Below are positions 7,396 through 36,982 of a stretch of DNA of 41,302 bases, one piece after another. The stretch comes from Desulfobulbaceae bacterium. Its GTDB lineage: Bacteria; Desulfobacterota; Desulfobulbia; Desulfobulbales; Desulfocapsaceae. Each line of letters begins with the position of its first letter. Position 1 is the first letter of the stretch. The notes beneath the pieces were generated by a model, which was given only the letters and a program-made list of their open reading frames with translations, searched no databases and had not been told where the DNA came from. The DNA is taken from positions 1 through 41,302 of the forward strand of contig JALSMA010000057.1 of the NCBI GenBank assembly GCA_026988015.1, in the 5' to 3' direction. A program made the position numbers and the translations under genes.

Positions 7396-7449
7396 TGGCA
7401 TGTTGCGACATCAGCTAATACCCGAAGGGGAGGTGGGGGGGGTAAAAAC

Positions 7450-7551
7450 ATGATGGAGTCTAAAAACTCTTCATCTGCATCTTGTATTCCCTTTAGGAAG
7501 TGCCCTTGTGGTGCATTTGAAGTTTTTTGGAGTCTGCGCCTGCCTACTTAG
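7450..7551 (+). CDS. Possible 33-residue small ORF upstream of gatB
   Basis: An ATG-initiated frame follows the G-rich run GGTGGGGGGGG with six bases between, which could act as a ribosome-binding site. The product would be Ser-rich at the N-terminus and contain KCPCGAFEVFW. There is no homologue that I recognise and it may be chance. The remainder of 7396-7645 holds no other feature that I can support. Confidence 0.15.
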   Translation: MMESKNSSSASCIPFRKCPCGAFEVFWSLRLPT

Positions 7552-21312: not shown

Positions 21313-22222
<910 letters not shown>

Positions 22223-22313
22223 CGGGAAACACCATAAAGTAAATACTATGGCCCATTTCAAAAACAATGAAAAAAGTGGCAGCCGGGCTGACCACAACGC
22301 TGGAGATACAATT

Positions 22314-22670
22314 ATGATGCTTATGATTCGTTCAATTATTCGTCCCGAGAAGGCTGATGCTGTTATGACAGCTCTCATGGATGCAGGATTTCCTGCTGTA
22401 ACCAAATACGCTGTTGCCGGGCGCGGTAAACAGCGTGGTATCAAAATAGGGGATATTACCTACGATGAGCTTCCCAAAGTGATGCTGATGAGTGTTGTGG
22501 ACGCTGGAGATAAAGAATTTATTATCGATACCATCATGGATGCTGCCCGGTCTCCTGGTAAGGGAGCTTTTGGTGACGGAAAGATATTTGTCACAGAAGT
22601 GGAGGAATCCTACACCATTAGCTCAGGTATCAAAGAGACCGGGAAAAATATTGAGGAGGCTGCTGCATGA
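22314..22670 (+). CDS. nifI1: Nitrogen regulatory PII-family protein NifI1
   Basis: NifI1 and NifI2 are PII-like proteins that together bind and inactivate NifDK when ammonium is plentiful (2-oxoglutarate low), as shown in methanogens. The protein has MIRSIIRPEKADAVMTALMDAGF, the T-loop region around KQRGIKIGDITYDELP, and the C-loop GDGKIFVTEVEES that binds nucleotide. The chosen start MMLMIRS has GGAG upstream and gives 118 residues, the family length; an in-frame ATG at 22248 would add a hydrophilic 22-residue extension without a good ribosome-binding site. The stop overlaps the nifI2 start. Confidence 0.93.
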   Translation: MMLMIRSIIRPEKADAVMTALMDAGFPAVTKYAVAGRGKQRGIKIGDITYDELPKVMLMSVVDAGDKEFIIDTIMDAARSPGKGAFGDGKIFVTEVEESYTISSGIKETGKNIEEAAA

Positions 22671-23041
22671 AAGAGGTCATTGCCGTTGTGCGAATAAATA
22701 TGATGAACCAGACCAAGCAGGCACTTTCGGACTGCGGTGTTGATGCCTTTTTTGCCCATGAAGCTCATGGGCGTGGAAAGGGATTTGTAAATCCCCAGGT
22801 TCTTGAAGGTGTCGAACAGGGTTACGAAGAAGCGGCTTCCGTCCTGGGCGAGAAAGGGAAGCTATATCCAAAGCGTTTACTCACTGCGGTGGTTGATGAC
22901 AGTATGGTCAAGTGTGTGGTGGATACCATTATCAGCACTAACCAGACAGGAATGCCGGGAGACGGGAAAATCTTTGTTATGCCAGTGTTCGATGCGGTTA
23001 GAGTGAGAACAGGAGAAACAGGCGAAGAGGCCATTAAGTAA
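22667..23041 (+). CDS. nifI2: Nitrogen regulatory PII-family protein NifI2
   Basis: The 124-residue partner of NifI1 begins KEVIAVVRINMMNQTKQALS and has the NifI2-type HEAHGRGKGFVNP T-loop start, the long T-loop up to LYPKRLLTAVV, and GDGKIFVMPVFDAVRVRTGE at the end. Its ATG overlaps the nifI1 stop (ATGA), so translation is coupled. Position between nifH and nifD is diagnostic for this pair. It should form a hetero-oligomer with NifI1 that blocks NifH access to NifDK in the absence of 2-oxoglutarate and ATP. Confidence 0.95.
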   Translation: MKEVIAVVRINMMNQTKQALSDCGVDAFFAHEAHGRGKGFVNPQVLEGVEQGYEEAASVLGEKGKLYPKRLLTAVVDDSMVKCVVDTIISTNQTGMPGDGKIFVMPVFDAVRVRTGETGEEAIK

Positions 23042-23091: not shown

Positions 23092-24741
23092 ATGGAAATG
23101 GCAACATCGACTGCGTCAAAAAAGGTGCAATGGACGCCCACTGATGTCAAAGCGGAATTATTGAAAAAGTATCCGCCCAAGGTGGCTCGTAAACGTGCTA
23201 AACAAATAATGATAAACGAAACTTCTGATGGAGAGATCTCTCCTCAGATAACAGCAAATGTTCGTACTATTCCTGGTATTATAACCATGCGTGGCTGTAC
23301 CTATGCAGGTTGTAAGGGCGTTCTCATGGGGCCCACCAGAGATATTGTCAATCTGGTGCATGGGCCAATTGGTTGTGGTTTTTATGCCTGGCTTACCAGA
23401 CGTAACCAGACTGATGCCGGAGCTGATGGGGAAAACTATATACCATATTGTGTATCAACGGATATGCAGGAGCAGGACATTATTTTTGGTGGAGAGAAGA
23501 AGCTGGCTTTGGCCATACAGGAAATTTATGACATTATGCACCCGAAAGCCATTGCAGTGTTCTCAACCTGCCCTGTTGGTTTGATAGGGGATGATGTTCA
23601 TGCCGTGGCCAAAAGCATGACGGCAAAACTGGGTGACTGCAATGTGTTTGCTTTTTCCTGTGAAGGGTACAAGGGCGTAAGCCAGTCGGCTGGTCATCAT
23701 ATCGCCAATAACCAGGTATACAGGCATGTCATTGGCGAAAATGATGAGCCGGTGAAAGGTGAGTACAAGGTAAATCTTCTCGGTGAATACAATATTGGTG
23801 GTGATGCGTTTGAAATTGACAGGATTCTGGAAAAATGTGGGATAACACTTACCCTGACTTTTTCTGGAAATGCAACCTATGATCAGTTTGCCACTGCACA
23901 TCAGGCAGATTTGAGCATGGTCATGTGTCATCGTTCTGTCAATTATATTGCAGATATGCTGGAAACAAGTTTCGGAATCCCATGGATAAAAGTGAATTTT
24001 ATCGGAGCGAATTCCACTGCCAAATCTTTGAGAAAAATTGCAGCTTATTTTGAAGATCAGAAACTGATTGATCGTGTGGAAGAAGTTATCCGGGAAGAGA
24101 TGCTTGATGTTGAGGTTGCTGCCAGAGAAGTACGAAGTAGGACAGAAGGGAAGACGGCTATGTTGTTTGTTGGCGGTTCCAGGGCGCACCATTATATAGA
24201 GCTTTTCAATGAGCTTGGGATGAAGATCCTTTCCTCAGGATACGAATTTGGACACCGTGACGATTATGAAGGTCGACAGGTTCTTCCAAACCTGAAAGTA
24301 GATGCTGACAGCAGGAACATAGAAGAAATTGAAGTTCAGCCTGATGAAAAAAGATACAAGCCACGCAAGAGTGAGGAACAGATGGCAGCTCTTGAAAAAT
24401 CCGGAATGAAATTCAAGGAATATGAAGGGCTTGCTCCGGACATGGATGAAAACACTTTGATTATCGATGACTTGAATCAGTATGAAGCGGAAAAACTTGT
24501 AGAACTGCTGAAACCTGACCTTTTTTGTGCGGGAATTAAGGAGAAGTTTTCCATTATGAAAATGGGTGTTCCCATGAAGATGCTCCACAATTATGACTCT
24601 GGTGGTCCATATGCAGGATTTAAGGGAGCAGCAAACTTCTACTACGAGATCGACAGATTGCTGAGTTCAAATGTCCGGGAGTTTTTGAAAGCTCCATGGC
24701 AGGAGAACCCTGAACTGACCGGCGCGTATGTCTGGGAGTAA
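23092..24741 (+). CDS. nifD: Nitrogenase molybdenum-iron protein alpha chain NifD
   Basis: NifD holds the iron-molybdenum cofactor and half of each P-cluster. P-cluster cysteines appear in RGCTYAGCKG (69/74), GPIGCGFYAW (95) and FSTCPVGLIGDD (160). Cofactor residues are Cys279 in VMCHRSVNYI and His499 in MKMLHNYDSGGPY, and the catalytic-pocket His lies in SQSAGHHIANN (202/203). At 549 residues it is longer than proteobacterial NifD because of an insertion of about 50 residues (roughly 398-450) that is known from clostridial NifD. A second ATG two codons in is an alternative start. Confidence 0.98.
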   Translation: MEMATSTASKKVQWTPTDVKAELLKKYPPKVARKRAKQIMINETSDGEISPQITANVRTIPGIITMRGCTYAGCKGVLMGPTRDIVNLVHGPIGCGFYAWLTRRNQTDAGADGENYIPYCVSTDMQEQDIIFGGEKKLALAIQEIYDIMHPKAIAVFSTCPVGLIGDDVHAVAKSMTAKLGDCNVFAFSCEGYKGVSQSAGHHIANNQVYRHVIGENDEPVKGEYKVNLLGEYNIGGDAFEIDRILEKCGITLTLTFSGNATYDQFATAHQADLSMVMCHRSVNYIADMLETSFGIPWIKVNFIGANSTAKSLRKIAAYFEDQKLIDRVEEVIREEMLDVEVAAREVRSRTEGKTAMLFVGGSRAHHYIELFNELGMKILSSGYEFGHRDDYEGRQVLPNLKVDADSRNIEEIEVQPDEKRYKPRKSEEQMAALEKSGMKFKEYEGLAPDMDENTLIIDDLNQYEAEKLVELLKPDLFCAGIKEKFSIMKMGVPMKMLHNYDSGGPYAGFKGAANFYYEIDRLLSSNVREFLKAPWQENPELTGAYVWE

Positions 24742-24825
24742 AGGAATCCTGGAAAGAGCTTGATCAAGATTGAAAAAAGAAACCAGGATAACAGTTTATA
24801 AAAACGTACTAAGAGGTATGTGCCA

Positions 24826-26199
24826 ATGTTACTACGTCATACACCAAAAGAAATTGGGGAGAGAAAAGCAGTAAATATCAACCCCGCCAAGACTTGTCAA
24901 CCCGTGGGAGCCATGTATGCGGCTCTCGGTATTCACGGTTGCCTTCCCCATTCGCATGGGTCTCAAGGATGCTGCTCGTATCATCGTTCAGCTCTTACCC
25001 GTCATTATAAAGAACCAATTTCGGCTTCAACTTCTTCTTTTACAGAAGGGGCATCGGTTTTTGGCGGTCAGGCCAATCTTCTACAGGGAATAAATAATAT
25101 TTTCTCTGTTTATGAGCCTGACGTCATAGCCATCCATACCACCTGTCTTTCTGAGACCATTGGTGATGATCTGCCTCAGATCAGAAAGAAGGCAGAGCAG
25201 GAGGGGAAAATTCCCGAAGGGAAATATGTGATAGGAGCCTCAACACCAAGTTATCAGGGGTCTCATGTCACCGGGTTTTCCAATATGGTCAAGGCCATGG
25301 TGGATTTTTCCGAGAAGACAGAGACAAAAAACGGAAAGATCAATATCATTCCCGGTTGGGTTGAGCCTTCTGATATGGAAGAAATCAAACGCATGGCAAA
25401 ACTTACCGGCGTGGACACAATTATGTTTCCAGATACTTCCGGTGTGCTCAATGGCCCTATGACAGGAGAATACAAGATGTTCCCGGATGGGGGAACCACC
25501 ATAGAAGAGTTGAAGTCCACAGGTGATTCCACGGGAACTCTTGCGCTTGGTGATTGGTGCTCGGCAGACGCAGCTCGGACACTTGACAAAAAGTGTAAAG
25601 TTCCATGCAAGGTGCTGGATATCCCTTTTGGTTTGAAAGCCACTGATCGTTTTGTTGATGCGATGCGGACTGTGGCGGGGGTTTCAGTCTCCGATGAGCT
25701 GGTTTATGAGCGTGGACAGCTCGTGGATATGTTAACTGATATGCACCAGTGGACATACAAGAAAAAAGTGGCCATAGCAGGTGATCCGGATCATGTGATT
25801 GCCATGGTGGAGTTTCTTTTAACGTTGGGAATGCAACCTGTACACATTGTGACAGGAACGCCCGGCAAAAAATTTGAAAAACGGATTGAAGAACTGACAA
25901 AAGACAAGGGTTTTGAAGTGAATGTGAAAGCTAAGGGGGATCTCTTCCTTCTCCATCAGTGGATAAAGAATGAGCCGGTGGATCTTCTTATTTGTAATAC
26001 CTATGGAAAATACATCGCAAGAGATGAAGATGTTCCTCTGTTGCGTTGGGGATTCCCAATTCTTGATCGTCAGGGGCATCAGTATTTTCCAACCGTTGGC
26101 TATAAGGGTGGGCTTCGTTTGCTGGAGAAGATTCTTGGCCTTCTTCTTGACCGGAAGGATCGGGATTCACCGGAAACAAAATTTGAACTTGTTCTGTAG
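24826..26199 (+). CDS. nifK: Nitrogenase molybdenum-iron protein beta chain NifK
   Basis: NifK completes the alpha2beta2 dinitrogenase. P-cluster ligands are in NPAKTCQPVGAMYAALG, GSQGCCSYHRS and HTTCLSETIGDD, with the serine of TPSYQGSHVTGF. At 457 residues it lacks the N-terminal extension of about 50 residues seen in Azotobacter-type NifK, in line with the clostridial form, which pairs with a NifD carrying an insertion. AAGAGG lies nine bases before the chosen ATG; a GTG two codons upstream is in frame. The next gene starts 11 bases after the stop. Confidence 0.98.
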   Translation: MLLRHTPKEIGERKAVNINPAKTCQPVGAMYAALGIHGCLPHSHGSQGCCSYHRSALTRHYKEPISASTSSFTEGASVFGGQANLLQGINNIFSVYEPDVIAIHTTCLSETIGDDLPQIRKKAEQEGKIPEGKYVIGASTPSYQGSHVTGFSNMVKAMVDFSEKTETKNGKINIIPGWVEPSDMEEIKRMAKLTGVDTIMFPDTSGVLNGPMTGEYKMFPDGGTTIEELKSTGDSTGTLALGDWCSADAARTLDKKCKVPCKVLDIPFGLKATDRFVDAMRTVAGVSVSDELVYERGQLVDMLTDMHQWTYKKKVAIAGDPDHVIAMVEFLLTLGMQPVHIVTGTPGKKFEKRIEELTKDKGFEVNVKAKGDLFLLHQWIKNEPVDLLICNTYGKYIARDEDVPLLRWGFPILDRQGHQYFPTVGYKGGLRLLEKILGLLLDRKDRDSPETKFELVL

Positions 26200-26210
26200 G
26201 AGGAGCAGCA

Positions 26211-27305
26211 ATGTATGACGGAGCATATCAGCACCATGTGAATTTGCATGTAAGGCTTCCTGTTGCTGCAAGATCAAACCATCGCTTGACAGGAGACAGC
26301 TCTGAAAAGTTTGACCCTTCTTATGCAATGTTGCCGGAAGAGGCGGCAGCTTGGGTTAGGGCTCTGCTGGAAGGGAGAAAGAAAATTCAGTCAATCGAAC
26401 TGGCAGGGCCTGGAGATGTTTTCACATCAGCAAATGTTACTCTTGAATGCCTTGAGTTGTTGCAGTCGGATATTCAGGGAACTGAATGTTCGCTGACCTG
26501 TCTCGGGACGGGAGTCGCTGAGGTGGCTCCCGATCTTGCCCGTCTTGGCGTGAAAACAGTGACTTTGCTGGTGAATACAGTGGATGTTGCAACTGTACGT
26601 AAGCTGTATGACTGGATTCGCCCGGCTAAAAAGACAGTACCCATGGACCAGGCGGCTGGGATGCTGATAGAATATCAGGCTGAAGCTGTTAAGGCGTTGA
26701 CGGCGGTAGGTATCAAAGTTGTGATACGAACAACAGTGTTTGCAGGAGTAAACGATGGAGAGCTGGCTGAGATCGCCGAAAGAATGGCTGAGTTTGGTGC
26801 AAGCGCTCTGGAGCTTGAGGGAGGAGAGGGGGTTGATCTTAAAAAACATGTTAAAGAACTGGCAGGGGTTCTCTCAGTAACTCTTTATGAAGCACCCTCA
26901 GAACTGACACCTCCCGGTAGCCCTCAGACCTGCAAAGAAATCAGTTTGCCGGCAGCAACCAGTGAACGTCCCAATGTAGCGGTGGTTAGTACCAATGGTA
27001 TGGAGGTTGACGTGCATCTCGGCCTGGCATTGCAGGTACTTATTTATGGGCCCAGGGAGGATGGACTGCCGTGTCTCCTGATGACAAGAAAAACACCGGG
27101 TGCAGGTGGTGGAAAGGAAAGATGGAAGGCATTTGCCAAAGATTGTCTCTATGACTGCTTCGCCCTGTTGGCAACACACGCAGGAGATGCCCCCCGCAAA
27201 GAGTTTGCGCAACAGGGAATCAGAGTGATTTTGACAGAAGACAACGTTGAAGGTCTGGTTGATGTCCTTTTTGGCGGTGTAAAAAAGAAGAAATGTGGAA
27301 TGTAA
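26211..27305 (+). CDS. NifB/NifX-type protein lacking the radical-SAM cysteines
   Basis: The 364-residue protein follows the architecture of NifB, the radical-SAM enzyme that builds the cofactor precursor, fused to a NifX-like cofactor-binding domain. NifB-like landmarks are YQHHVNLHVRLPVA at the N-terminus, the SAM-contact motif AGPGD at 65-69, LVNTVD at 120-125 and FAGVND at 177-182. The C-terminal NifX-like domain spans about 252-356 (NVAVVSTNGMEVDVHLG and TPGAGGGKERWKA). Where NifB has CNIQCNYC the sequence reads RSNHRLTG (21-28), so all three SAM-cluster cysteines are gone, as is the HCxxC motif of NifB. The reading frame is intact and has a strong GGAGGAG site, so it is not a pseudogene. 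It may carry or protect NifB-co or FeMo-co; true NifB must be elsewhere. Confidence 0.8.
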   Translation: MYDGAYQHHVNLHVRLPVAARSNHRLTGDSSEKFDPSYAMLPEEAAAWVRALLEGRKKIQSIELAGPGDVFTSANVTLECLELLQSDIQGTECSLTCLGTGVAEVAPDLARLGVKTVTLLVNTVDVATVRKLYDWIRPAKKTVPMDQAAGMLIEYQAEAVKALTAVGIKVVIRTTVFAGVNDGELAEIAERMAEFGASALELEGGEGVDLKKHVKELAGVLSVTLYEAPSELTPPGSPQTCKEISLPAATSERPNVAVVSTNGMEVDVHLGLALQVLIYGPREDGLPCLLMTRKTPGAGGGKERWKAFAKDCLYDCFALLATHAGDAPRKEFAQQGIRVILTEDNVEGLVDVLFGGVKKKKCGM

Positions 27306-27581: not shown

Positions 27582-27884
27582 ATGGCTTTACCAGAAAGAA
27601 TGATACTTGTATGCCAGTCTTTTCGCATACTTGGAGGTAAGAAAGGAATTTGTCACAAGGAAACTGACGGGTTTCTGCAGTATATAGAAGAGGAGGTACT
27701 GGATCGTGGGCTGGATTGCCTGGTCAGCGCCACTACCTGCTTGAAGCTCTGTGATAACGGGCCTATCATGGTTATCCAGCCTGAAAACTGGTGGTTTAAA
27801 GGTGTGAACAGTGAAGAGATCATTGATGCGATTCTTGATGGCTTGGAAGATGGTGTGCCTGTTGCTGAGTATCATTTAATATAA
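27582..27884 (+). CDS. Thioredoxin-like [2Fe-2S] ferredoxin
   Basis: The 100-residue protein belongs to the thioredoxin-fold [2Fe-2S] ferredoxins known from Clostridium pasteurianum and Azotobacter vinelandii nif regions. It begins PERMILVCQSFRILGGKKGICH (first ligands C11 and C24) and has TTCLKLCDNGPIMVIQPENWW (the remaining two cysteines, four apart), then the GVNSEEIIDAILDGLEDG helix. Such proteins bind MoFe nitrogenase and have been proposed to protect it or assist its maturation. GGAGAT lies before the ATG. It follows the nifB-like gene by 276 bases in the same direction. Confidence 0.88.
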   Translation: MALPERMILVCQSFRILGGKKGICHKETDGFLQYIEEEVLDRGLDCLVSATTCLKLCDNGPIMVIQPENWWFKGVNSEEIIDAILDGLEDGVPVAEYHLI

Positions 27885-27955: not shown

Positions 27956-28435
27956 ATGAAAAAAAAGAGAGATCTTCGTGTTCGCAAGGCAAAACCTTCA
28001 GATTTGAACTCCATGCTGGGTCTATTGAGCCTTCTTTTCTCCATCGAAAAAGATTTCTTCTTTAACGAGGCAAGGCAGTGTCGGGGGCTTGTGCAAATGC
28101 TTGAGTATCAGATGGCAGAAGTTCTGGTGGCCGAATCCAGGAATCGGGTGATAGGGATGTGTACCGGGCAGCTGGTGATTTCAACAGCCGAAGGTGGCTA
28201 TTCTCTGCTGGTGGAGGATTTGGTTGTGGAACCATCCAGTCGTGGACAGAGGGTTGGCAGAATCCTTCTTGATAAACTTGAAAGGTGGGCAGTGGGGAAA
28301 GGTGCCACTCGCCTCCAACTTCTTGCGGATAAATCAAACAAGAAAGGGCTAGGTTTTTACACAAAGAATGGCTGGCAGCGAACAAATCTGATTTGTTTAC
28401 TTAAAAAACCTGAAGTGAAGGACAATGATTTTTAA
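27956..28435 (+). CDS. GNAT-family N-acetyltransferase
   Basis: The 159-residue protein has a single GNAT fold: LRVRKAKPSDLNSMLGLL at the N-terminus, central strand SLLVEDLVVEPSSRGQRVGRILLDKLERWA carrying the acetyl-CoA-binding Q/RxxGxG/A motif (RGQRVG), and the final GFYTKNGWQ typical of the family. The substrate is unknown. It sits between the nif-type ferredoxin and the HEPN-like gene. No Shine-Dalgarno sequence is apparent; the upstream region is occupied by a hairpin, so expression may be controlled at translation. Confidence 0.88.
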   Translation: MKKKRDLRVRKAKPSDLNSMLGLLSLLFSIEKDFFFNEARQCRGLVQMLEYQMAEVLVAESRNRVIGMCTGQLVISTAEGGYSLLVEDLVVEPSSRGQRVGRILLDKLERWAVGKGATRLQLLADKSNKKGLGFYTKNGWQRTNLICLLKKPEVKDNDF

Positions 28436-28455
28436 CGATTCATTCGGCGGGACAA

Positions 28456-28917
28456 ATGGAAAACAATAGCTTATCAACACTGGTTGGATTTGGGGACATA
28501 AAGAAAAAACCAGATGCCATTGATGACTGGGAGATTTTCCTCAGCGATGGTGATGCTTTTCTGCGAACAGCAGTAGGTGCTCATAAAAAAGGAAGGAAGG
28601 TTTTCAGCCCTGAAATTCTCTATAATATTGTTGCAATGGCCATTGAGAAATTTGTAATGGCGGCACTTATGCAACGGGGAGAACTTCCCTGGAATCACAC
28701 CATGGGGGATCTGGTGGCGGCCATGGATGAGGTTTTCCCGGATGAAATATCCAGTATAAAAGAGGGACTTCTCGATCTTGACCGGTATCAGGAAATCTGT
28801 GATGTGGATGCCTTCAATATAACACCACCCGATGAGGATGAGATACCAAACATGTTGGATCTTGCTGTGCAAATGCAGGCGCTGGTACGTAAAACCACAG
28901 GGGAGACATGTCAATGA
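28456..28917 (+). CDS. HEPN-like all-alpha protein
   Basis: The 153-residue protein is predicted mostly helical and resembles HEPN-domain proteins: a first helix with DWEIFLSDGDAFLRTA, a central PEILYNIVAMAIEKFVMAALMQ helix, and GELPWNHTMGDLVAAMDEVFP, comparable to the H-x-L segment of HEPN proteins. The canonical RX4-6H ribonuclease motif is not evident, so catalytic activity is doubtful. GGCGGGA lies before the ATG, 20 bases after the GNAT gene. Its end overlaps the next gene by 10 bases. The family call is from general pattern and is moderate. Confidence 0.6.
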   Translation: MENNSLSTLVGFGDIKKKPDAIDDWEIFLSDGDAFLRTAVGAHKKGRKVFSPEILYNIVAMAIEKFVMAALMQRGELPWNHTMGDLVAAMDEVFPDEISSIKEGLLDLDRYQEICDVDAFNITPPDEDEIPNMLDLAVQMQALVRKTTGETCQ

Positions 28918-29210
28918 CAAAACGATCGTTGGGGGTGATAAAGGAAATCCTTGAATCCGCCGGGATGGGTTTCAACTACGCTTATGAAGACCTGGTTTTC
29001 CTGGATCATAGTGGTTTTCTGTTGCAGTTTGCAGAGAAGAAAGGCGAGGTGTTGATTCACGTTAATGTTGAGGCAGAACAGGATGCACTGGCACTTGATA
29101 TTGCGCTTCTTCAGGAAAGGGCTTCGGAGCAAAATATGGTCTTTCTGCACGGGCAACAGTACAAATTGAGAGAAGCCGATGGAGAAAATGTTACGCTGGA
29201 ATTTTTGTAA
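28908..29210 (+). CDS. Unknown protein of nif accessory cassette
   Basis: The 100-residue acidic soluble protein is not one I recognise. It has an N-terminal helix (SLGVIKEILESAGMG), then alternating strands (DLVFLDHSGFLLQF, GEVLIHVNVEAE) and a helix before the final strands (MVFLHGQQYKLRE). No cysteine, signal peptide or membrane helix is seen. The start lies inside the last codons of the HEPN-like gene with GGGAG upstream, so the two are translationally coupled and may form a complex. Confidence 0.75.
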   Translation: MSMTKRSLGVIKEILESAGMGFNYAYEDLVFLDHSGFLLQFAEKKGEVLIHVNVEAEQDALALDIALLQERASEQNMVFLHGQQYKLREADGENVTLEFL

Positions 29211-31571: not shown

Positions 31572-32147
31572 CTTGCCCGTCAACTGAGTTGCTTCCGCGC
31601 ACTGTCGAGAAACGCTCCAGGAAGTAAAGAGCCTCAAACTGTGTAACCTGATTATTATCGAGAAACTCTGTCCCAGAAAAGTCGGAACTGTGCCGTGTTA
31701 CATATATGCAGCGCCATAAACTAGTCCATGTCGAAGCCGCTGTGCAGGAACTCTGTATAATGGAGATGAGTGCTCTTCTTTCCACGGATTCAAGCTGTTA
31801 GCAGTATTTCCGATTCTGTTCCGGGAATTAAACAGGATCAAAGATGTCTCAATAGAGTCCTAAGTGCTAAAGAAATAAAGGAAATTCTTTTACCTTGGGG
31901 ATGCTTTTTTTTTAAATCTCACTTGACAGAGAGTGTCATGTTGTGGCAGCATTAAAATGCTATTGGAACTTGCTCCCGATAGGAAGTGCTTACTGTCTGG
32001 CAAGGGTTCTTATTTGTAATCAATTGAAAATAATTGTTTTAAATAGTTTTACCAGTGGCCGTGATGGCTTTTTCTGCCAGCAACAGTCTGTCTTGTAAAT
32101 TGGTGGGGGCAGGCTGTTTGTTTAAAACTGTTTCAAGAGGAGGAACA
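31572..32147. other. Intergenic region upstream of napD
   Basis: This 576-base stretch holds no gene that I can support. It contains a small hairpin AGCAT-TAAA-ATGCT at 31948-31961 and an AT-rich inverted pair CAATT/AATTG near 32020-32036 that is only loosely like an FNR-type site. The nap promoter should lie here. I found no sigma-54 element. Confidence 0.5.
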
Positions 32148-32378
32148 ATGCCTATCTTAAGTTATCTGGTGTTGCCCCAGGATGGAGCTATGGATCAGTT
32201 ATGTTCTGATCTATCCAGTATGGAATATTGTGAAATAATACCTGCGGATAATCAGGAGGTTGTGGTTCTGGTAACTGACACCCCTGACGATAAAGTTGAA
32301 GAAACTCTTCAGGAAACGTTGAAAAACTTACCTTCGTTACAATCATTCAGCATGACCTATGGTCATAATGCCGTATAA
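32148..32378 (+). CDS. napD: NapD-like chaperone for NapA
   Basis: NapD is a small cytoplasmic protein that binds the NapA twin-arginine signal and holds export until the molybdenum cofactor is inserted. The 76-residue product has the ferredoxin-like fold pattern of the family: PILSYLVLPQDGAMDQLCSDL, then CEIIPADNQEVVVLVTD, and a helix before LQSFSMTYGH. A longer frame exists, but the ATG at 32148 has AAGAGGAGG just before it. It lies immediately upstream of napA, the order seen in many nap operons. Family identity is supported mainly by size, fold pattern and position. Confidence 0.75.
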   Translation: MPILSYLVLPQDGAMDQLCSDLSSMEYCEIIPADNQEVVVLVTDTPDDKVEETLQETLKNLPSLQSFSMTYGHNAV

Positions 32379-32403
32379 CAAACAGGGAGAAAAAGAGGAT
32401 AAT

Positions 32404-34722
32404 ATGAAGCTAAACAGAAGATCATTCATTAAGTCTGCGGCTGCGGGCAGTGCCATTGCAGCGGCTGGGTCAATTTTCCCTGGAATCAGCTTTGCCAACT
32501 GGAAAGAACAGACAGGTTCTGCAGGACAGATTACCTGGAAAAAGGCACCATGCCGTTTTTGTGGAACCGGTTGCGGGGTCCTTGTAGGGGTATCCGGAGA
32601 TCGTGCTGTGGCAGTTAAGGGCGACCCAAACTGCAGTGTCAACAAGGGATTGTGCTGCGTGAAAGGCTTTCACGTGGTACAGGCTCTGTATGGTAAGGAC
32701 AGGCTTCGCACAGCGAAGGTCAGAAGGGGGGGCAAGATGGTGGAAGTACCCGTATCTGAAGCCCTGGATATCATTGCCGCCAAGATGAAACAGACCATCA
32801 AGGAGACAGGTAAGGACTCTGTTGCCATGTATGGTTCCGGTCAGTGGACTATTCCGGATGGTTATGTTGCCTCCAAACTGTTCAAAGGCTGCATTGGAAC
32901 AAATAATGTTGAGGCCAATGCCAGGCTCTGTATGGCCAGTGCTGTTACAGGATTCCTGACCTCTTTTGGTACCGATGAGCCCATGGGTTGCTATGAGGAT
33001 ATCGAGCATGCTGATGTCTTTGTGACCTGGGGAAATAATATGGCTGAGATGCATCCGGTGCTTTTCTCCCGTATGCTGGCTTCTAGGAAACGTCGTGGAA
33101 ATGTCGAAATCATAGATCTTGCCACCCGTTCGACCCGCTCCAGTCAGGCATCTGACAAATCTATCCTCTTTAAGCCAAATACTGATCTAGCTGTAGCCAA
33201 CGCCATCTGTTACGAGATTATTCGTAACGACTGGGTTAACTGGGACTTTGTCAAGAAGCACACAACCTTCCATAAGGGCAAAACCAATATAGGTTATGGC
33301 ACCGAAGATCATTTCAAATTTAAAGATGCCCCCGAGGATATCAGCTTCGAAGAGTATAAAGAGTTCCTCAGTGATTACACCCCGAAGAAGGTAGAAAAGA
33401 TTTCTGGTGTTTCAGCCCGGGATATCAAGTATCTGGCGTCTCTTTATGGGGATCCAAGTAAAAAGTGTACCTCATTCTGGTGTATGGGAATGAATCAGCA
33501 TGTGAGGGGAACCTGGATTAACAATCTGGTTTACAATATTCATCTGCTCACTGGAAAAATTTCTACTCCTGGGAACAGTCCATTTTCCCTCACCGGACAG
33601 CCAAGTGCCTGTGGAACCGTTCGTGAAGTCGGGACTCTGACCCATAAACTGCCCCATGGTGTGGTCATGAAGGAAGCTCATCGTAAGATGGCGGCAGAAA
33701 TATGGGATGTTCCTCTTACCAACATTGACCCAAAGCCGACCTACCATACCGTGGAGATGTTCCGGGCCCTGGATCGCGGTGATATCCGTTTTATCTGGAT
33801 TCAGGTAACCAACCCTATGATCACCATGCCGAACCTGACCCGCTACCGTAATGGTGCTCTTAAGGACGATAGATTTATCGTTGTTTCAGATGTTTATCCG
33901 ACACCCACCACTGATGTCGCTGACGTTGTTCTGCCAGCCGCCATGTGGGTGGAGCAGGAAGGGATGTATGGTAACTCCGAGAGACGTACGCAGCATTTTG
34001 ATCGTATTGTTCCAGGGCCGGGGGAGACTATGTCTGATACCTGGCAGATCATTGAGGTGGCAAGAAGACTTGGATACGAGAAACAGTTTCCATGGGGTGA
34101 GGATGAGTACATCGGAAAGATCTGGGAAGAGTACAGGCGTTTTCATGATTCACCGAAACATAACATGGCGCCTTATGATGTTCTGAAAAAACGCTCTGGT
34201 GTACAGTGGCCCTTTGTTGATGGCAAGGAAACCAGATGGCGCTTTAATTCCAAGTATGATCCAGCCTGTAAGCCGGGAAGTGAGTTTGACTTTTACGGCA
34301 AAAAAGATGGTAAGGCCTGGATTTGGGCCCGCCCCTATGAGCCCGCCGCAGAGTCTCCAGACGATGAGTATGACTTCTGGCTCAATACCGGTCGTGTCAT
34401 AGAGCACTGGCATACCGGTACCATGACCCGCAGGGTTCCGGTGCTACATCGCGCGGTACCTGAATCTTATGTGGAAATTCATCCTGAAGATGCTATGAAC
34501 CTTGGAGTAACCAACGGAGAGATGGTGAAGATTATCTCCAGGCGCGGTGAGGTGACCATGAAAGCTTCAATTGATGGACGTGGTAAACCGCCACGTGGAA
34601 TGGTGTTTGTCCCTTTCTTTGATGAGTCCTATAAAATCAATGAGGTTACTCTGGACGCTTTCTGTCCCATCTCAAAGCAGCCAGACTACAAAAAATGTGC
34701 CGTTCGCCTGGAGAAAGCGTGA
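32404..34722 (+). CDS. napA: Periplasmic nitrate reductase catalytic subunit NapA
   Basis: NapA reduces nitrate to nitrite in the periplasm with a bis-MGD molybdenum centre and one [4Fe-4S] cluster. A twin-arginine signal (NRRSFIKSAAAGSAIAAAG) spans about 4-31. Cluster ligands are in CRFCGTGCGVLVG near 50-60 and the fourth near 85 (CVKG). The molybdenum-ligating cysteine is in NARLCMASA near 180. Later signatures include TGQPSACGTVREVGTL and WIQVTNPMITMPN, both typical of NapA rather than formate dehydrogenase. At 772 residues it is of the shorter, Desulfovibrio-like size. It overlaps the next gene's start. Confidence 0.96.
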   Translation: MKLNRRSFIKSAAAGSAIAAAGSIFPGISFANWKEQTGSAGQITWKKAPCRFCGTGCGVLVGVSGDRAVAVKGDPNCSVNKGLCCVKGFHVVQALYGKDRLRTAKVRRGGKMVEVPVSEALDIIAAKMKQTIKETGKDSVAMYGSGQWTIPDGYVASKLFKGCIGTNNVEANARLCMASAVTGFLTSFGTDEPMGCYEDIEHADVFVTWGNNMAEMHPVLFSRMLASRKRRGNVEIIDLATRSTRSSQASDKSILFKPNTDLAVANAICYEIIRNDWVNWDFVKKHTTFHKGKTNIGYGTEDHFKFKDAPEDISFEEYKEFLSDYTPKKVEKISGVSARDIKYLASLYGDPSKKCTSFWCMGMNQHVRGTWINNLVYNIHLLTGKISTPGNSPFSLTGQPSACGTVREVGTLTHKLPHGVVMKEAHRKMAAEIWDVPLTNIDPKPTYHTVEMFRALDRGDIRFIWIQVTNPMITMPNLTRYRNGALKDDRFIVVSDVYPTPTTDVADVVLPAAMWVEQEGMYGNSERRTQHFDRIVPGPGETMSDTWQIIEVARRLGYEKQFPWGEDEYIGKIWEEYRRFHDSPKHNMAPYDVLKKRSGVQWPFVDGKETRWRFNSKYDPACKPGSEFDFYGKKDGKAWIWARPYEPAAESPDDEYDFWLNTGRVIEHWHTGTMTRRVPVLHRAVPESYVEIHPEDAMNLGVTNGEMVKIISRRGEVTMKASIDGRGKPPRGMVFVPFFDESYKINEVTLDAFCPISKQPDYKKCAVRLEKA

Positions 34723-35366
34723 TGAACAAGAGAGCCAAGATAACCACTGGTGTGGTCATCGGTTTTGCTGCTGTCTGTTTTTCCTGGACTGTCGTATCCA
34801 TGTCAGCACAGGCAGCACCCGGTGTTCAGGAGGGGTTCGACTGGAGTGGTGAGAAAATTTACAACCGCTACAACGATACACCATTGCAGGCCATGACAGG
34901 CACCGATGGGAGACGGACACTGAATACCTTTTATGAGAGGCGTCAGTATCCAGGATCGCCTCCCATCGTACCCCATAAGGTCGCTGAGGCATTTTCAGGA
35001 GACACCGCAAAGTGTATATCCTGTCATGGTCGTGGCGGCTATGATGCCGAGCAGGATGCCTATGCACCTGTAACTCCACATCCGGAAAATGAAAACTGTT
35101 TTCAATGTCATGTTCCGATAACAACCGAAAATCTGTTTGTGGAGAGCGATTGGGAGTCGGTTTCACCATCAAGGCTTGGCAGGTCTATGATGGGAGGCTC
35201 ACCGCCTCCTGTCCCCCATAGCCTGCAACTTCGGGAAGATTGTATCGCTTGTCACACAGGCCCGGGAGCGGTGGCTGAAATCAGAGTGGAACATGGATCA
35301 CGTGGTAACTGTCGGCAGTGTCATGTACCCCAAGTGACTACCACCACTTTTGAACGAAATAATTAA
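34722..35366 (+). CDS. Tandem NapB-like tetrahaem cytochrome c
   Basis: NapB is the dihaem electron donor of NapA. This 214-residue protein has a signal peptide or anchor at about 8-28 and then two NapB-like modules. Module one has PPIVPHKV, CISCH and CFQCHVP; module two has PPPVPHSL, CIACH and CRQCHVPQV. Each matches the E. coli NapB pattern PPxIPHS ... CLQCH ... CLQCHVPQ. The protein therefore carries four haems instead of two and looks like a duplicated and fused NapB. The ATG overlaps the napA stop codon, so translation is coupled. Confidence 0.85.
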   Translation: MNKRAKITTGVVIGFAAVCFSWTVVSMSAQAAPGVQEGFDWSGEKIYNRYNDTPLQAMTGTDGRRTLNTFYERRQYPGSPPIVPHKVAEAFSGDTAKCISCHGRGGYDAEQDAYAPVTPHPENENCFQCHVPITTENLFVESDWESVSPSRLGRSMMGGSPPPVPHSLQLREDCIACHTGPGAVAEIRVEHGSRGNCRQCHVPQVTTTTFERNN

Positions 35367-35381
35367 GGGCTGAAAACAGTT

Positions 35382-36011
35382 ATGAACAAAATACCTTATG
35401 GTGTTGGAGTGTTTTTTGTGGCACTAGCAGCCGTTGTTCTGGTGGATCAGTCAGCGGTGGCCTCGGGAGCAGCGGGTGCTGAATCGGTAACTGATCGAAT
35501 CAACCATGCGACTGAGCCGTATGACAGTATGAGAGTCTCAACAGCCTATGAACTGTCAGTGAAAACTGTGCAGTCAAAAGAACAGTATCAGGGTGGCGAC
35601 TTCAAGGTTCTGGCACGGAAAGATCAGATCAGCCGTTTTCGTTGCAGCGTTTGTCATAATGACAAGCCGGTATTGATACAAAATGGTGCACTTTTTACCC
35701 ATGGTGACGTAAAACTTAACCATGGCCTTGGAAACAACCAGCTTACCTGTAATGAATGTCACAGTATGGGAAACCGTGATTTTCTGGTGGATAAAGAAGG
35801 TCAGAAAATCGATTTTGACCACAGCTACCAGTTGTGCGGAAAGTGTCATTTCCGCCAGAAGCGTGACTGGCTGGGAGGTGCCCATGGAAAGCGTGAAGCG
35901 TATTGGGCCGGAGAACGGGTGGTAAGAAACTGTACCAGCTGTCATAATCCTCACTCCCCTGCCTTTGCAACAAAGATGCCGGCGACATATTCTTTGCCGT
36001 TGGATGAATAG
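35382..36011 (+). CDS. Periplasmic tetrahaem cytochrome c
   Basis: The 209-residue protein has a signal peptide (about 1-28, ending before SGAAGA) and four CXXCH motifs: CSVCH, CNECH, CGKCH and CTSCH. The additional histidines in THGDVKLNHG and DFDHSY could be distal ligands. It resembles soluble donors such as NapM of Desulfovibrio in haem number only; I cannot assign a family with confidence. It lies between the NapB-like gene and the NrfC-like gene, so it most likely passes electrons from the NrfCD-like module to NapA. Confidence 0.8.
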   Translation: MNKIPYGVGVFFVALAAVVLVDQSAVASGAAGAESVTDRINHATEPYDSMRVSTAYELSVKTVQSKEQYQGGDFKVLARKDQISRFRCSVCHNDKPVLIQNGALFTHGDVKLNHGLGNNQLTCNECHSMGNRDFLVDKEGQKIDFDHSYQLCGKCHFRQKRDWLGGAHGKREAYWAGERVVRNCTSCHNPHSPAFATKMPATYSLPLDE

Positions 36012-36019
36012 GGGAAACC

Positions 36020-36982
36020 ATGGATTCCAGAACGAATAATGAAGATCAGATAGAAACAGAAGGTATGGCAGACAATAAAAGTTCTCGTCGGCAATTTCTG
36101 AAAAAGATGTCCATTGCAGCGGCTGCAGGTTCCGCAAGTCTTGTGGTGGGAGGCTGTGGCGGCTCTCTCAAAACTGAAGAGATGGGCTTGAAGTGGGAAG
36201 AGTACTTTAAAGAGCATTACCGCCTGATGACCCAGGAAGAAAAGGATGCCACTGTCAAGCGCCTTGAGCGTCTTGCAAAGCTTGAACGTGGCATTGATGT
36301 TCAGATGTCAAACCAGGAGCCGCATGAACAGGTTCTATATGGATACGCATTTAATATTTCCCGCTGCAAAGGCTATATGGATTGCGTGGAGGCCTGTGTC
36401 AAGGAGAACAACCTTGATCGTCGTGCCAAGACTCAATATGTACGGATTTTTGAAATGGATCCCGGAAAGCTTGATCCCACCGCGGGTGATGGACAATTTT
36501 TCCATGAGGTACCGGTGGATAATAAATTTTATATGGGGGTCCAGTGTTTTCATTGCGAGAATGCTCCCTGCATAAAGGCTTGTCCCACCAAGGCTACTTG
36601 GCGTGAGCCCGATGGAATCGTGGTTGTGGACTATGACTGGTGTATTGGTTGTCGTTACTGTCTTGCAGCCTGTCCTTACTGGGGGCGCCGTTTTAACTGG
36701 GGTGATCCGGAAGTGCCAAAAGAAGAGATAAATCTGAATCAGCATTATCTCGGGAATCGTATGCGGATGAAAGGGGTCATGGAAAAGTGTACCTTCTGTG
36801 TCCAGAGGACTCGTAAAGGGAAGTTGCCTGCATGTGCAGATGCCTGCCCAACCGGTTCCAGGGTATTCGGCAATCTCCTTGATCCGAACAGCGAAATCCG
36901 ATTTGTTCTGAAGAACAAGAAGGTTTTCCGGTTCAAAGAGGATTTGGGAACTGAGCCCAAGTTCTGGTATTTCATGGATTAA
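36020..36982 (+). CDS. NrfC-like periplasmic iron-sulphur protein
   Basis: The 320-residue protein has a twin-arginine motif (SSRRQFLKKM near 22-31) followed by a lipobox-like VVGGCGG, so it is exported folded and possibly lipid-anchored. It then carries four cluster-binding segments of the DmsB/NrfC type: CKGYMDCVEAC, CFHCENAPCIKACP, CIGCRYCLAACP and CTFCVQRTRKGKLPACADACP. The first segment has Tyr where the second cysteine of CxxCxxCxxxC is expected, so one cluster lacks a normal ligand set. It should connect the NrfD-like quinol-oxidising subunit to the cytochromes. GGGGA precedes the ATG; an internal ATG fifteen codons on would also keep the signal. Confidence 0.9.
   Translation: MDSRTNNEDQIETEGMADNKSSRRQFLKKMSIAAAAGSASLVVGGCGGSLKTEEMGLKWEEYFKEHYRLMTQEEKDATVKRLERLAKLERGIDVQMSNQEPHEQVLYGYAFNISRCKGYMDCVEACVKENNLDRRAKTQYVRIFEMDPGKLDPTAGDGQFFHEVPVDNKFYMGVQCFHCENAPCIKACPTKATWREPDGIVVVDYDWCIGCRYCLAACPYWGRRFNWGDPEVPKEEINLNQHYLGNRMRMKGVMEKCTFCVQRTRKGKLPACADACPTGSRVFGNLLDPNSEIRFVLKNKKVFRFKEDLGTEPKFWYFMD

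Follow-up and report, generated by a model that had tools for sequence, protein, structure and literature searches.

A NifB paralog without radical-SAM cysteines, encoded behind nifK, is a probable carrier, not a producer, of the nitrogenase metal cofactor

The window, i.e., the whole analysed stretch of 41,302 nucleotides, is the entire contig C57 of its genome. Its nif genes lie on the forward strand, as do the ribosome-binding site, the ferredoxin-type gene, and all segments of the protein under study that are detailed below. They comprise nifH, nifI1, and nifI2 (21392..23041; taken from their open reading frames, nifH being named by eye), nifD (23092..24741; TIGR01282, 647.1 bits, slightly below the cut-off of 653.55), and nifK (24820..26199; TIGR01286, 445.4 bits, above the cut-off of 427.3). 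The nifI proteins match genes annotated as P-II family on a Nitratidesulfovibrio plasmid. The gene under study (26211..27305) has its ATG 11 bases behind the end of nifK (26199) and is preceded by the ribosome-binding site GGAGGAG (26199..26205), whose first base is the last base of nifK. It encodes 364 residues without an internal stop, in agreement with the preliminary description of an intact frame and a strong ribosome-binding site 11 bases past nifK. Downstream, a [2Fe-2S] ferredoxin-type gene (27582..27884) scores 54.2 bits with NF041612, below the cut-off of 150, and also matches a gene annotated as (2Fe-2S) ferredoxin. Behind it, at 27956-29210, lie a gene of the GNAT type and two small ones; the latter encode 153 and 100 aa and gave no Pfam match at E values up to 1. 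Further downstream of the nif genes, at 32055-36982, a cluster of the periplasmic nitrate reductase type with multihaem cytochromes was recognized by eye.

Based on open reading frame, translation, family profiles, and homologs, the gene product was classified as a Cys-less NifB paralog (pseudo-NifB). Its N-terminal part is a radical-SAM-type barrel without the cluster cysteines (residues 14-225; 26250..26885), supported by Pfam PF04055 and an AlphaFold model; the Radical_SAM profile (PF04055) matches residues 32-191 with 36.2 bits (cut-off 29.5). The C-terminal part is a NifX-like, predicted cofactor-binding domain (residues 252-357; 26964..27281), assigned by PF02579, the 1p90 profile, and the fold of 9ian_F. 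Nitro_FeMo-Co (PF02579) covers residues 263-347 with 25.8 bits, just below the cut-off of 26.3, and reaches 26.9 bits, above it, in the genome search. The motifs AGPGD (residues 65-69; 26403..26417), VNTVD (121-125), and GVND (179-182) are present. Thus, Pfam matches and translation bear out the NifB layout with a NifX-like domain and these three motifs, as it had been read from the sequence. In the profile search, a check proposed at that stage, Radical_SAM lies above its cut-off, while the NCBIfam nifB model TIGR01290 gives 97.9 bits, far below its cut-off of 343.65. Neither the NifX model TIGR02663 nor the NafY N-terminal domain PF16844 matches the protein at E values up to 1.

The AlphaFold model has a mean pLDDT of 89.0 and a pTM of 0.81. 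Its barrel finds the best PDB match in NifB 7jma (Z 26.3, rmsd 1.6 A over 202 residues), well ahead of viperin, which follows as the second kind of protein (18.5). Foldseek also retrieves chain 9ian_F, the NifX of the NifEN-NifX complex, at rank 29 (E 3.1e-6). With the family profile, the NafY core 1p90 is a weak hit (E 0.007). In the likewise weak single-sequence alignment (E 0.44), H269 is paired with the histidine of the HFG motif in 1p90.

Within its own genome, the window protein otherwise matches only a single gene, hit in two pieces on contig C34. This NifB carries HPC, CNIKCNYC, ExRP, and CKRCRADAVG and scores 378.8 bits, above the NifB cut-off. Its gene is preceded by nifE (623.2 bits, cut-off 505.1) and a nifN-type gene (312.7 bits, just below 326.8), such that the catalytic nifB and the nifEN genes, whose search elsewhere in the genome had been advised, were found together. 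The window protein thus represents a second, cysteine-free copy. In the alignment of both, S22, L26, and D29 occupy the positions of the SAM-cluster cysteines of NifB, and SNHRLTGD (residues 22-29; 26274..26297) stands where NifB has CNIKCNYC as its CxxxCxxC site. The claimed loss of CxxxCxxC therefore stands, whereas the replacement given for it, RSNHRLTG, is one residue off; the loss of HCxxC holds in the same alignment. The protein was said to lack the radical-SAM cysteines, and none stands at the aligned positions. Indeed, all nine cluster cysteines of NifB are missing, the K1 and K2 positions included (cluster ligands assigned according to passages of PMC7145814 and PMC6053413).

The NifB motif set used for the motif tests follows a passage of PMC5715403. 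In the family alignment of 91 rows, L132 stands in the wrong frame; its motif region is free of cysteines, and it was excluded from all counts based on 90 rows. Cx3Cx2C is missing from the window protein, and the three SAM-cluster columns hold Cys in 0, 0, and 13 of the 91 rows, two or more never occurring in one row (0/91). HPC is missing as well; the string was found in one of 18 members read (L136), and a Cys occupies the HPC column in 41/91 rows, within a poorly aligned stretch whose alignment is uncertain near this position. ExRP is absent, the C63/ExRP loop being a gap in 89/91 rows, among them the window protein. The same is true for Cx2CRxDAxG, of which neither Cys column is filled, and TxTxN appears as T118-L-L-V-N122 with L in place of the second T. 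AGPG is retained (residues 65-68). K1-type ligands are kept by some members, namely a counterpart of H43 in 12/91 and of C129 in 10/91 rows. Both occur in L130, L131, L133, L134, and L157 of family f26 and in L069, L089, and L110, with the SAM-cluster cysteines absent; the window protein has neither.

Other positions are invariant. Within the barrel, G68, G99, W135, R137, P138, and Q156 are found in 90/90 rows, and three of them belong to the barrel family signature W-I-R-P (residues 135-138; 26613..26624). Within the NifX-like domain, H269, R293, R304, W305, D315, and C316 are equally constant. His269-Leu-Gly (27015..27023) is the counterpart of the cofactor-ligand motif His-Phe-Gly of NafY (PMC8496260), i.e., the HxG motif of NafY and NifX. 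The same cofactor His is conserved in true NifB (34/34 rows), and hence it can tell neither NifB-co from FeMo-co nor the family from NifB.

The Cys-less gene reveals dN/dS values of 0.10-0.23 in the 13 usable of 14 pairs, one pair giving no value and the pair of the window and L035 having a dS of 1.6; in two of the same pairs nifK yields 0.02-0.04. This purifying selection, together with open frames in 80 loci, confirms the view that the gene is being kept as a protein. A frameshift or assembly error that hides the cysteines is ruled out, since the Cys-less protein recurs in 80 other loci, including two isolates. We calculated a tree from 28 of the 91 family rows and 29 of the 34 NifB rows, rooted with three proteobacterial NifB. 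All 28 family rows form one clade with support 100/100, placed among NifB of the phylum to which they belong. Its stem measures 1.24 changes per site, a length that leaves the exact placement unsure. The branch of L159 is very long, and the make-up of L056 is odd. Judged from this clade and from the shared C63/ExRP loop gap, the family is apparently of single origin. Overall, sequence comparison supports a NifB-family pseudoenzyme that is kept by selection and lacks the radical-SAM cysteines.

The two parts of the protein differ in what is conserved. In 16 paired genomes, the mean pairwise identity of the family amounts to 37.9% in the barrel and 60.7% in the NifX domain, compared to 66.3% and 57.9%, respectively, in true NifB of the same genomes. 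The NifX domain is more alike than the barrel in 120/120 family pairs versus 3/120 NifB pairs. Columns fixed at 95% in these genomes number 15/223 (family) versus 80/234 (NifB) in the barrel. The wider sets of 89 family rows (omitting L132 and L160) and 34 NifB rows give 21/223 versus 56/234 fixed columns in the barrel and 35/105 versus 13/104 in the NifX domain, but they mix unlike host spreads, and the pairing of 16 genomes is the fairer comparison. Identities and fixed columns thus indicate that constraint is gone from the barrel and retained on the NifX domain. As far as sequences tell, the latter is kept, not tightened (27/105 fixed columns in the family versus 25/104 in NifB, paired genomes).

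The search among relatives covered 96 genomes, i.e., the window's own and 95 others. The Cys-less protein gave matches in 53 of them, whereof 48 were assigned the Cys-less protein and five (G062, G067, G068, G081, and G084) true NifB only, on the basis of score, coverage, and place beside nifK. A search with nifK matched the identical 53 genomes, such that the Cys-less gene occurs in 48/53 genomes with nifK and in 0/43 without. The nifK matches in G008, G059, G063, and G076 contain one in-frame stop codon each, which are sequencing errors or real breaks. In G004, two near-equal Cys-less copies are located on C11 and C99 (L010), each behind nifK; the genome is 8% contaminated, and the pair could result from a duplication in the assembly.

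A scan of named genomes, with further host groups possible outside the phylum, was evaluated for the best 80 of 134 confirmed loci. These are mostly labelled Desulfobulbaceae, Desulfocapsa, Desulfobulbus, cable bacteria, and uncultured deltaproteobacteria, with some Proteobacteria, and the isolates that have the protein include Desulforhopalus vacuolatus DSM 9700 and Desulfobulbus alkaliphilus DSM 24258. Three loci are labelled Desulfovibrio or Pseudodesulfovibrio (L069, L089, and L110). L089 and L110 match the NifB query better than the window protein and were considered as possible cysteine-bearing intermediates; this was rejected, as neither sequence has the motif. In the tree, which does not include L110, L089 groups within the family. 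The 80 named loci and the 96 relatives overlap, some contigs being identical, and a single metagenome-assembled genome contributes both contigs L037 and L038; the counts are therefore not independent.

Phylum-wide, the family profile identifies the Cys-less protein in at least 19/394 genomes, 18 of which score at least 337 bits while the protein of G363 is split in two pieces; this is a lower bound, with some weaker matches (186 bits and below) uncounted. By lineage, ten belong to the window's order, six to family f26, two to f51, and one to f87. Among 30 loci read, the top 18 all lack CxxxCxxC and the next 12, from 297 bits downward, all have it. On plasmids, among the 30 listed of 201 matching records, a single place covers at least 80% of the query. 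It is located on the Nitratidesulfovibrio plasmid and was rejected as a family member, as the gene has the NifB cysteines.

The same gene was to be looked for beside nifK in related genomes, and it was found there: among the best 80 of 134 loci, nifK lies at most 450 bp upstream in 71, or in 72 counting L100, whose contig starts with a cut nifK. In L092, the locus starts at the edge of its contig. A [2Fe-2S] ferredoxin-type gene is located downstream in 78 of the same 80 loci. The usual order is nifH-I1-I2-D-K-Cys-less gene-ferredoxin, behind which most of these loci show the GNAT-type gene and the two small genes, partly or wholly, and some of them nifE-N-B further downstream. In seven loci (L051, L054, L061, L070, L080, L093, and L105; four of them named cable bacteria), the gene lies away from nifK. 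These loci, from cable bacteria and some of their relatives, combine the Cys-less gene with ferredoxin, GNAT-type gene, and small genes in a separate module. A PII-like gene is found a few kb away in L051, L054, L070, L080, and L093, in L080 beside a putative ammonium transporter (by eye).

The gene had also been supposed to take the place usually held by nifE. This is not supported by the one Desulfovibrio-type operon read, that of the Nitratidesulfovibrio plasmid, which has the order nifK-ferredoxin-nifE-nifN-nifB without the Cys-less gene; the ferredoxin gene comes after nifK, and then nifE. Relative to this order, the Cys-less gene is an insert between nifK and the ferredoxin gene. In G062, G067, and G081, the ferredoxin gene directly follows nifK; G062 additionally contains a Nif11 gene downstream of ferredoxin. 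In G084 (L153, about 7434-7490), the gap between nifK and ferredoxin holds a Nif11-like small gene and, before ferredoxin, a stub resembling the C-terminal tail, whose matches are pieces of about 10-17 residues with a best E of 0.015 among the matches listed. G068 has no Cys-less gene, and no ferredoxin match was found within the 9 kb read. Several nifK-bearing relatives without the gene, and the stub in G084, imply that the gene is dispensable and was lost in the line of G084.

In the genome of the window, five further PF02579 matches are located on contigs C1, C28, and C38, four of them small proteins above the cut-off. The NafY N-terminal domain (PF16844) was not detected in this genome, and 13 chosen genomes of the phylum revealed neither this domain nor NifX above the model cut-offs; 14 control genomes likewise gave no match above cut-off, and so these absences lack a positive control. 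G060 and G073 have the Cys-less gene plus a weak stand-alone NifX-like gene behind nifB. The strongest NifX-like genes occur in G067 and G081 (60.5 and 51.8 bits; cut-off 112), two genomes without the Cys-less gene. A simple replacement of NifX by the Cys-less protein is unsupported, as G060 and G073 have both.

Taking these findings together, we consider it moderately probable that this NifB-NifX paralog is no longer an enzyme and now serves, along with NifDK, as a nitrogenase cofactor carrier and assembly factor in the manner of NafY, NifY, or NifX. In this group of sulfur-metabolising bacteria, it would probably carry the metal cofactor and no longer make it. This reading builds on an N-terminal module joined to a cofactor domain, a gene beside nifDK, and constraint kept on the cofactor domain. 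In NafY, the N-terminal domain binds apo-NifDK and the C-terminal domain FeMo-co; H121, within the HFG motif, serves as the key ligand of FeMo-co, and NifX and NifB reportedly share this motif (PMC8496260). NifX holds NifB-co through H35, as stated in a passage of PMC13128457, and H35 belongs to the same motif according to the papers rather than by alignment. By analogy, the NifX-like domain of the window protein would hold NifB-co or FeMo-co through His269. The barrel, released from catalytic constraint, could act as a docking module on NifDK, much like the N-terminal domain of NafY on apo-NifDK, or else on NifEN or NifB. Production from the nifK message would put the carrier at apo-NifDK for hand-over, where it may support the trafficking or insertion of FeMo-co, although nitrogen fixation would not depend on it.

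In favour of the carrier we count the inverted constraint, the invariant H269, D315, and C316, the NafY-like two-part layout, the linkage to and co-occurrence with nifK, the absence of a NafY N-terminal domain and of NifX above cut-off in 13 genomes, the dN/dS values, the match of the barrel to NifB over viperin, and the Foldseek match to a NifX chain. Against it stand the dispensability of the gene and the four small PF02579 proteins in the genome, each of which could be the carrier. Moreover, the linkage to nifK fits any role related to NifDK, and in seven loci the gene lies elsewhere. The preliminary description had proposed a pseudoenzyme that binds NifB-co or FeMo-co: the pseudoenzyme is confirmed, and predicted cofactor binding is favoured, given that conservation is concentrated in the NifX-like domain and that its cofactor-ligating His is invariant.

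The protein could instead regulate true NifB or serve as its decoy, binding NifB or NifEN and metering the flow of NifB-co without delivery to NifDK. Such a function would suit a protein that is paralogous to NifB and shares its barrel fold, but the barrel, the part it has in common with the catalytic half of NifB, has drifted most, and the gene is linked to nifK and ferredoxin while nifB lies on another contig and elsewhere several genes downstream; we regard this as unlikely. Somewhat less likely still is a structural prop for cofactor-free NifDK, similar to NifY and NafY, which would hold open or shield the insertion path and use the NifX fold as a protein-binding surface only. The operon position agrees with it, as does the copurification of NifY and NafY with MoFe protein lacking only the FeMo-cofactor (passage of PMC6016461), but a His269 invariant in 90/90 rows is hard to explain without a metal cluster. 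Residual chemistry, in which GPGD or the Cys and His residues of some members bind SAM or a different cluster, appears very improbable: the kept AGPG, the K1-type ligands of some members, and the Cys at the HPC column in many of them leave room for it, but the SAM-cluster columns never hold two cysteines in one row, the C63/ExRP gap is nearly general, and all nine of the cluster cysteines are missing from the window protein. A decaying duplicate or misassembly, to which the remnant in L153 might point, is refuted by the open frames, the dN/dS values, and one clade spread across the group, and its probability is negligible.

With regard to the carrier and its evolution, a further-reading scenario is put forward tentatively. 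NifB may have duplicated and lost its Fe-S clusters, the copy now collecting NifB-co or FeMo-co for NifDK in a lineage-specific insertion route, with the K1-type ligands as traces of the former enzyme. Such a route, proposed with the same reserve, would extend to most nifK-bearing relatives examined, and the K1-type traces to some branches. Most of what is known about how FeMo-co is carried and inserted comes from Azotobacter, the organism of the carrier papers; in a phylum where 13 genomes revealed neither NafY domain nor NifX above the cut-offs, a conserved NifB-derived pseudoenzyme could supply a carrier. If true, a radical-SAM enzyme would have been re-used as a metallocofactor chaperone, providing a new part for nitrogenase engineering. 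In any case, labels such as 'nifB' or 'radical SAM' in nif operons need a cysteine check. The nif operons of Desulfobulbaceae are treated in PMC7341956. Searches of the open-licence PMC literature revealed no description of the Cys-less NifB family. A 2017 survey excluded 28% of putative NifB, most of them without Cx3Cx2C, with a NifX domain, and taken for NifX (passage of PMC5715403); members of the Cys-less family may be among these dropped entries.

Compared to known systems, the protein shares with NifB of the NifB-NifX form (TIGR01290) the barrel fold, the domain order, AGPG and GxND, and a NifX-like domain with the cofactor His, and the family joins the NifB of its own phylum in the tree. 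It differs in the loss of CxxxCxxC, HPC, ExRP, and Cx2CRxDAxG, in a score far below the curated cut-off, and in that the barrel of the family, not the NifX domain, drifts. With NafY and NifY it has in common two parts, a C-terminal NifX-type domain with the His of the FeMo-co motif, and a gene near nifK, which is also where nifY is found in gammaproteobacteria; in contrast to NafY, the N-terminal part is a dead radical-SAM barrel and not PF16844. The NifX fold and, by motif, the cluster-ligating His are shared with NifX (TIGR02663; PMC8496260 and a passage of PMC13128457), but the Cys-less protein adds a barrel of more than 200 residues, and its gene lies behind nifK while nifX lies behind nifEN in Azotobacter (same passage of PMC13128457). 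NifB3 of Paenibacillus is likewise a NifB copy without a cluster motif; according to PMC8287671, NifB3 of two strains has neither Cx2CRxDAxG nor a NifX domain, and its authors regard nifB3 and nifB4 as possible pseudogenes. The Cys-less family, on the other hand, is conserved, has lost the cysteines of the SAM cluster, and has retained its NifX domain.
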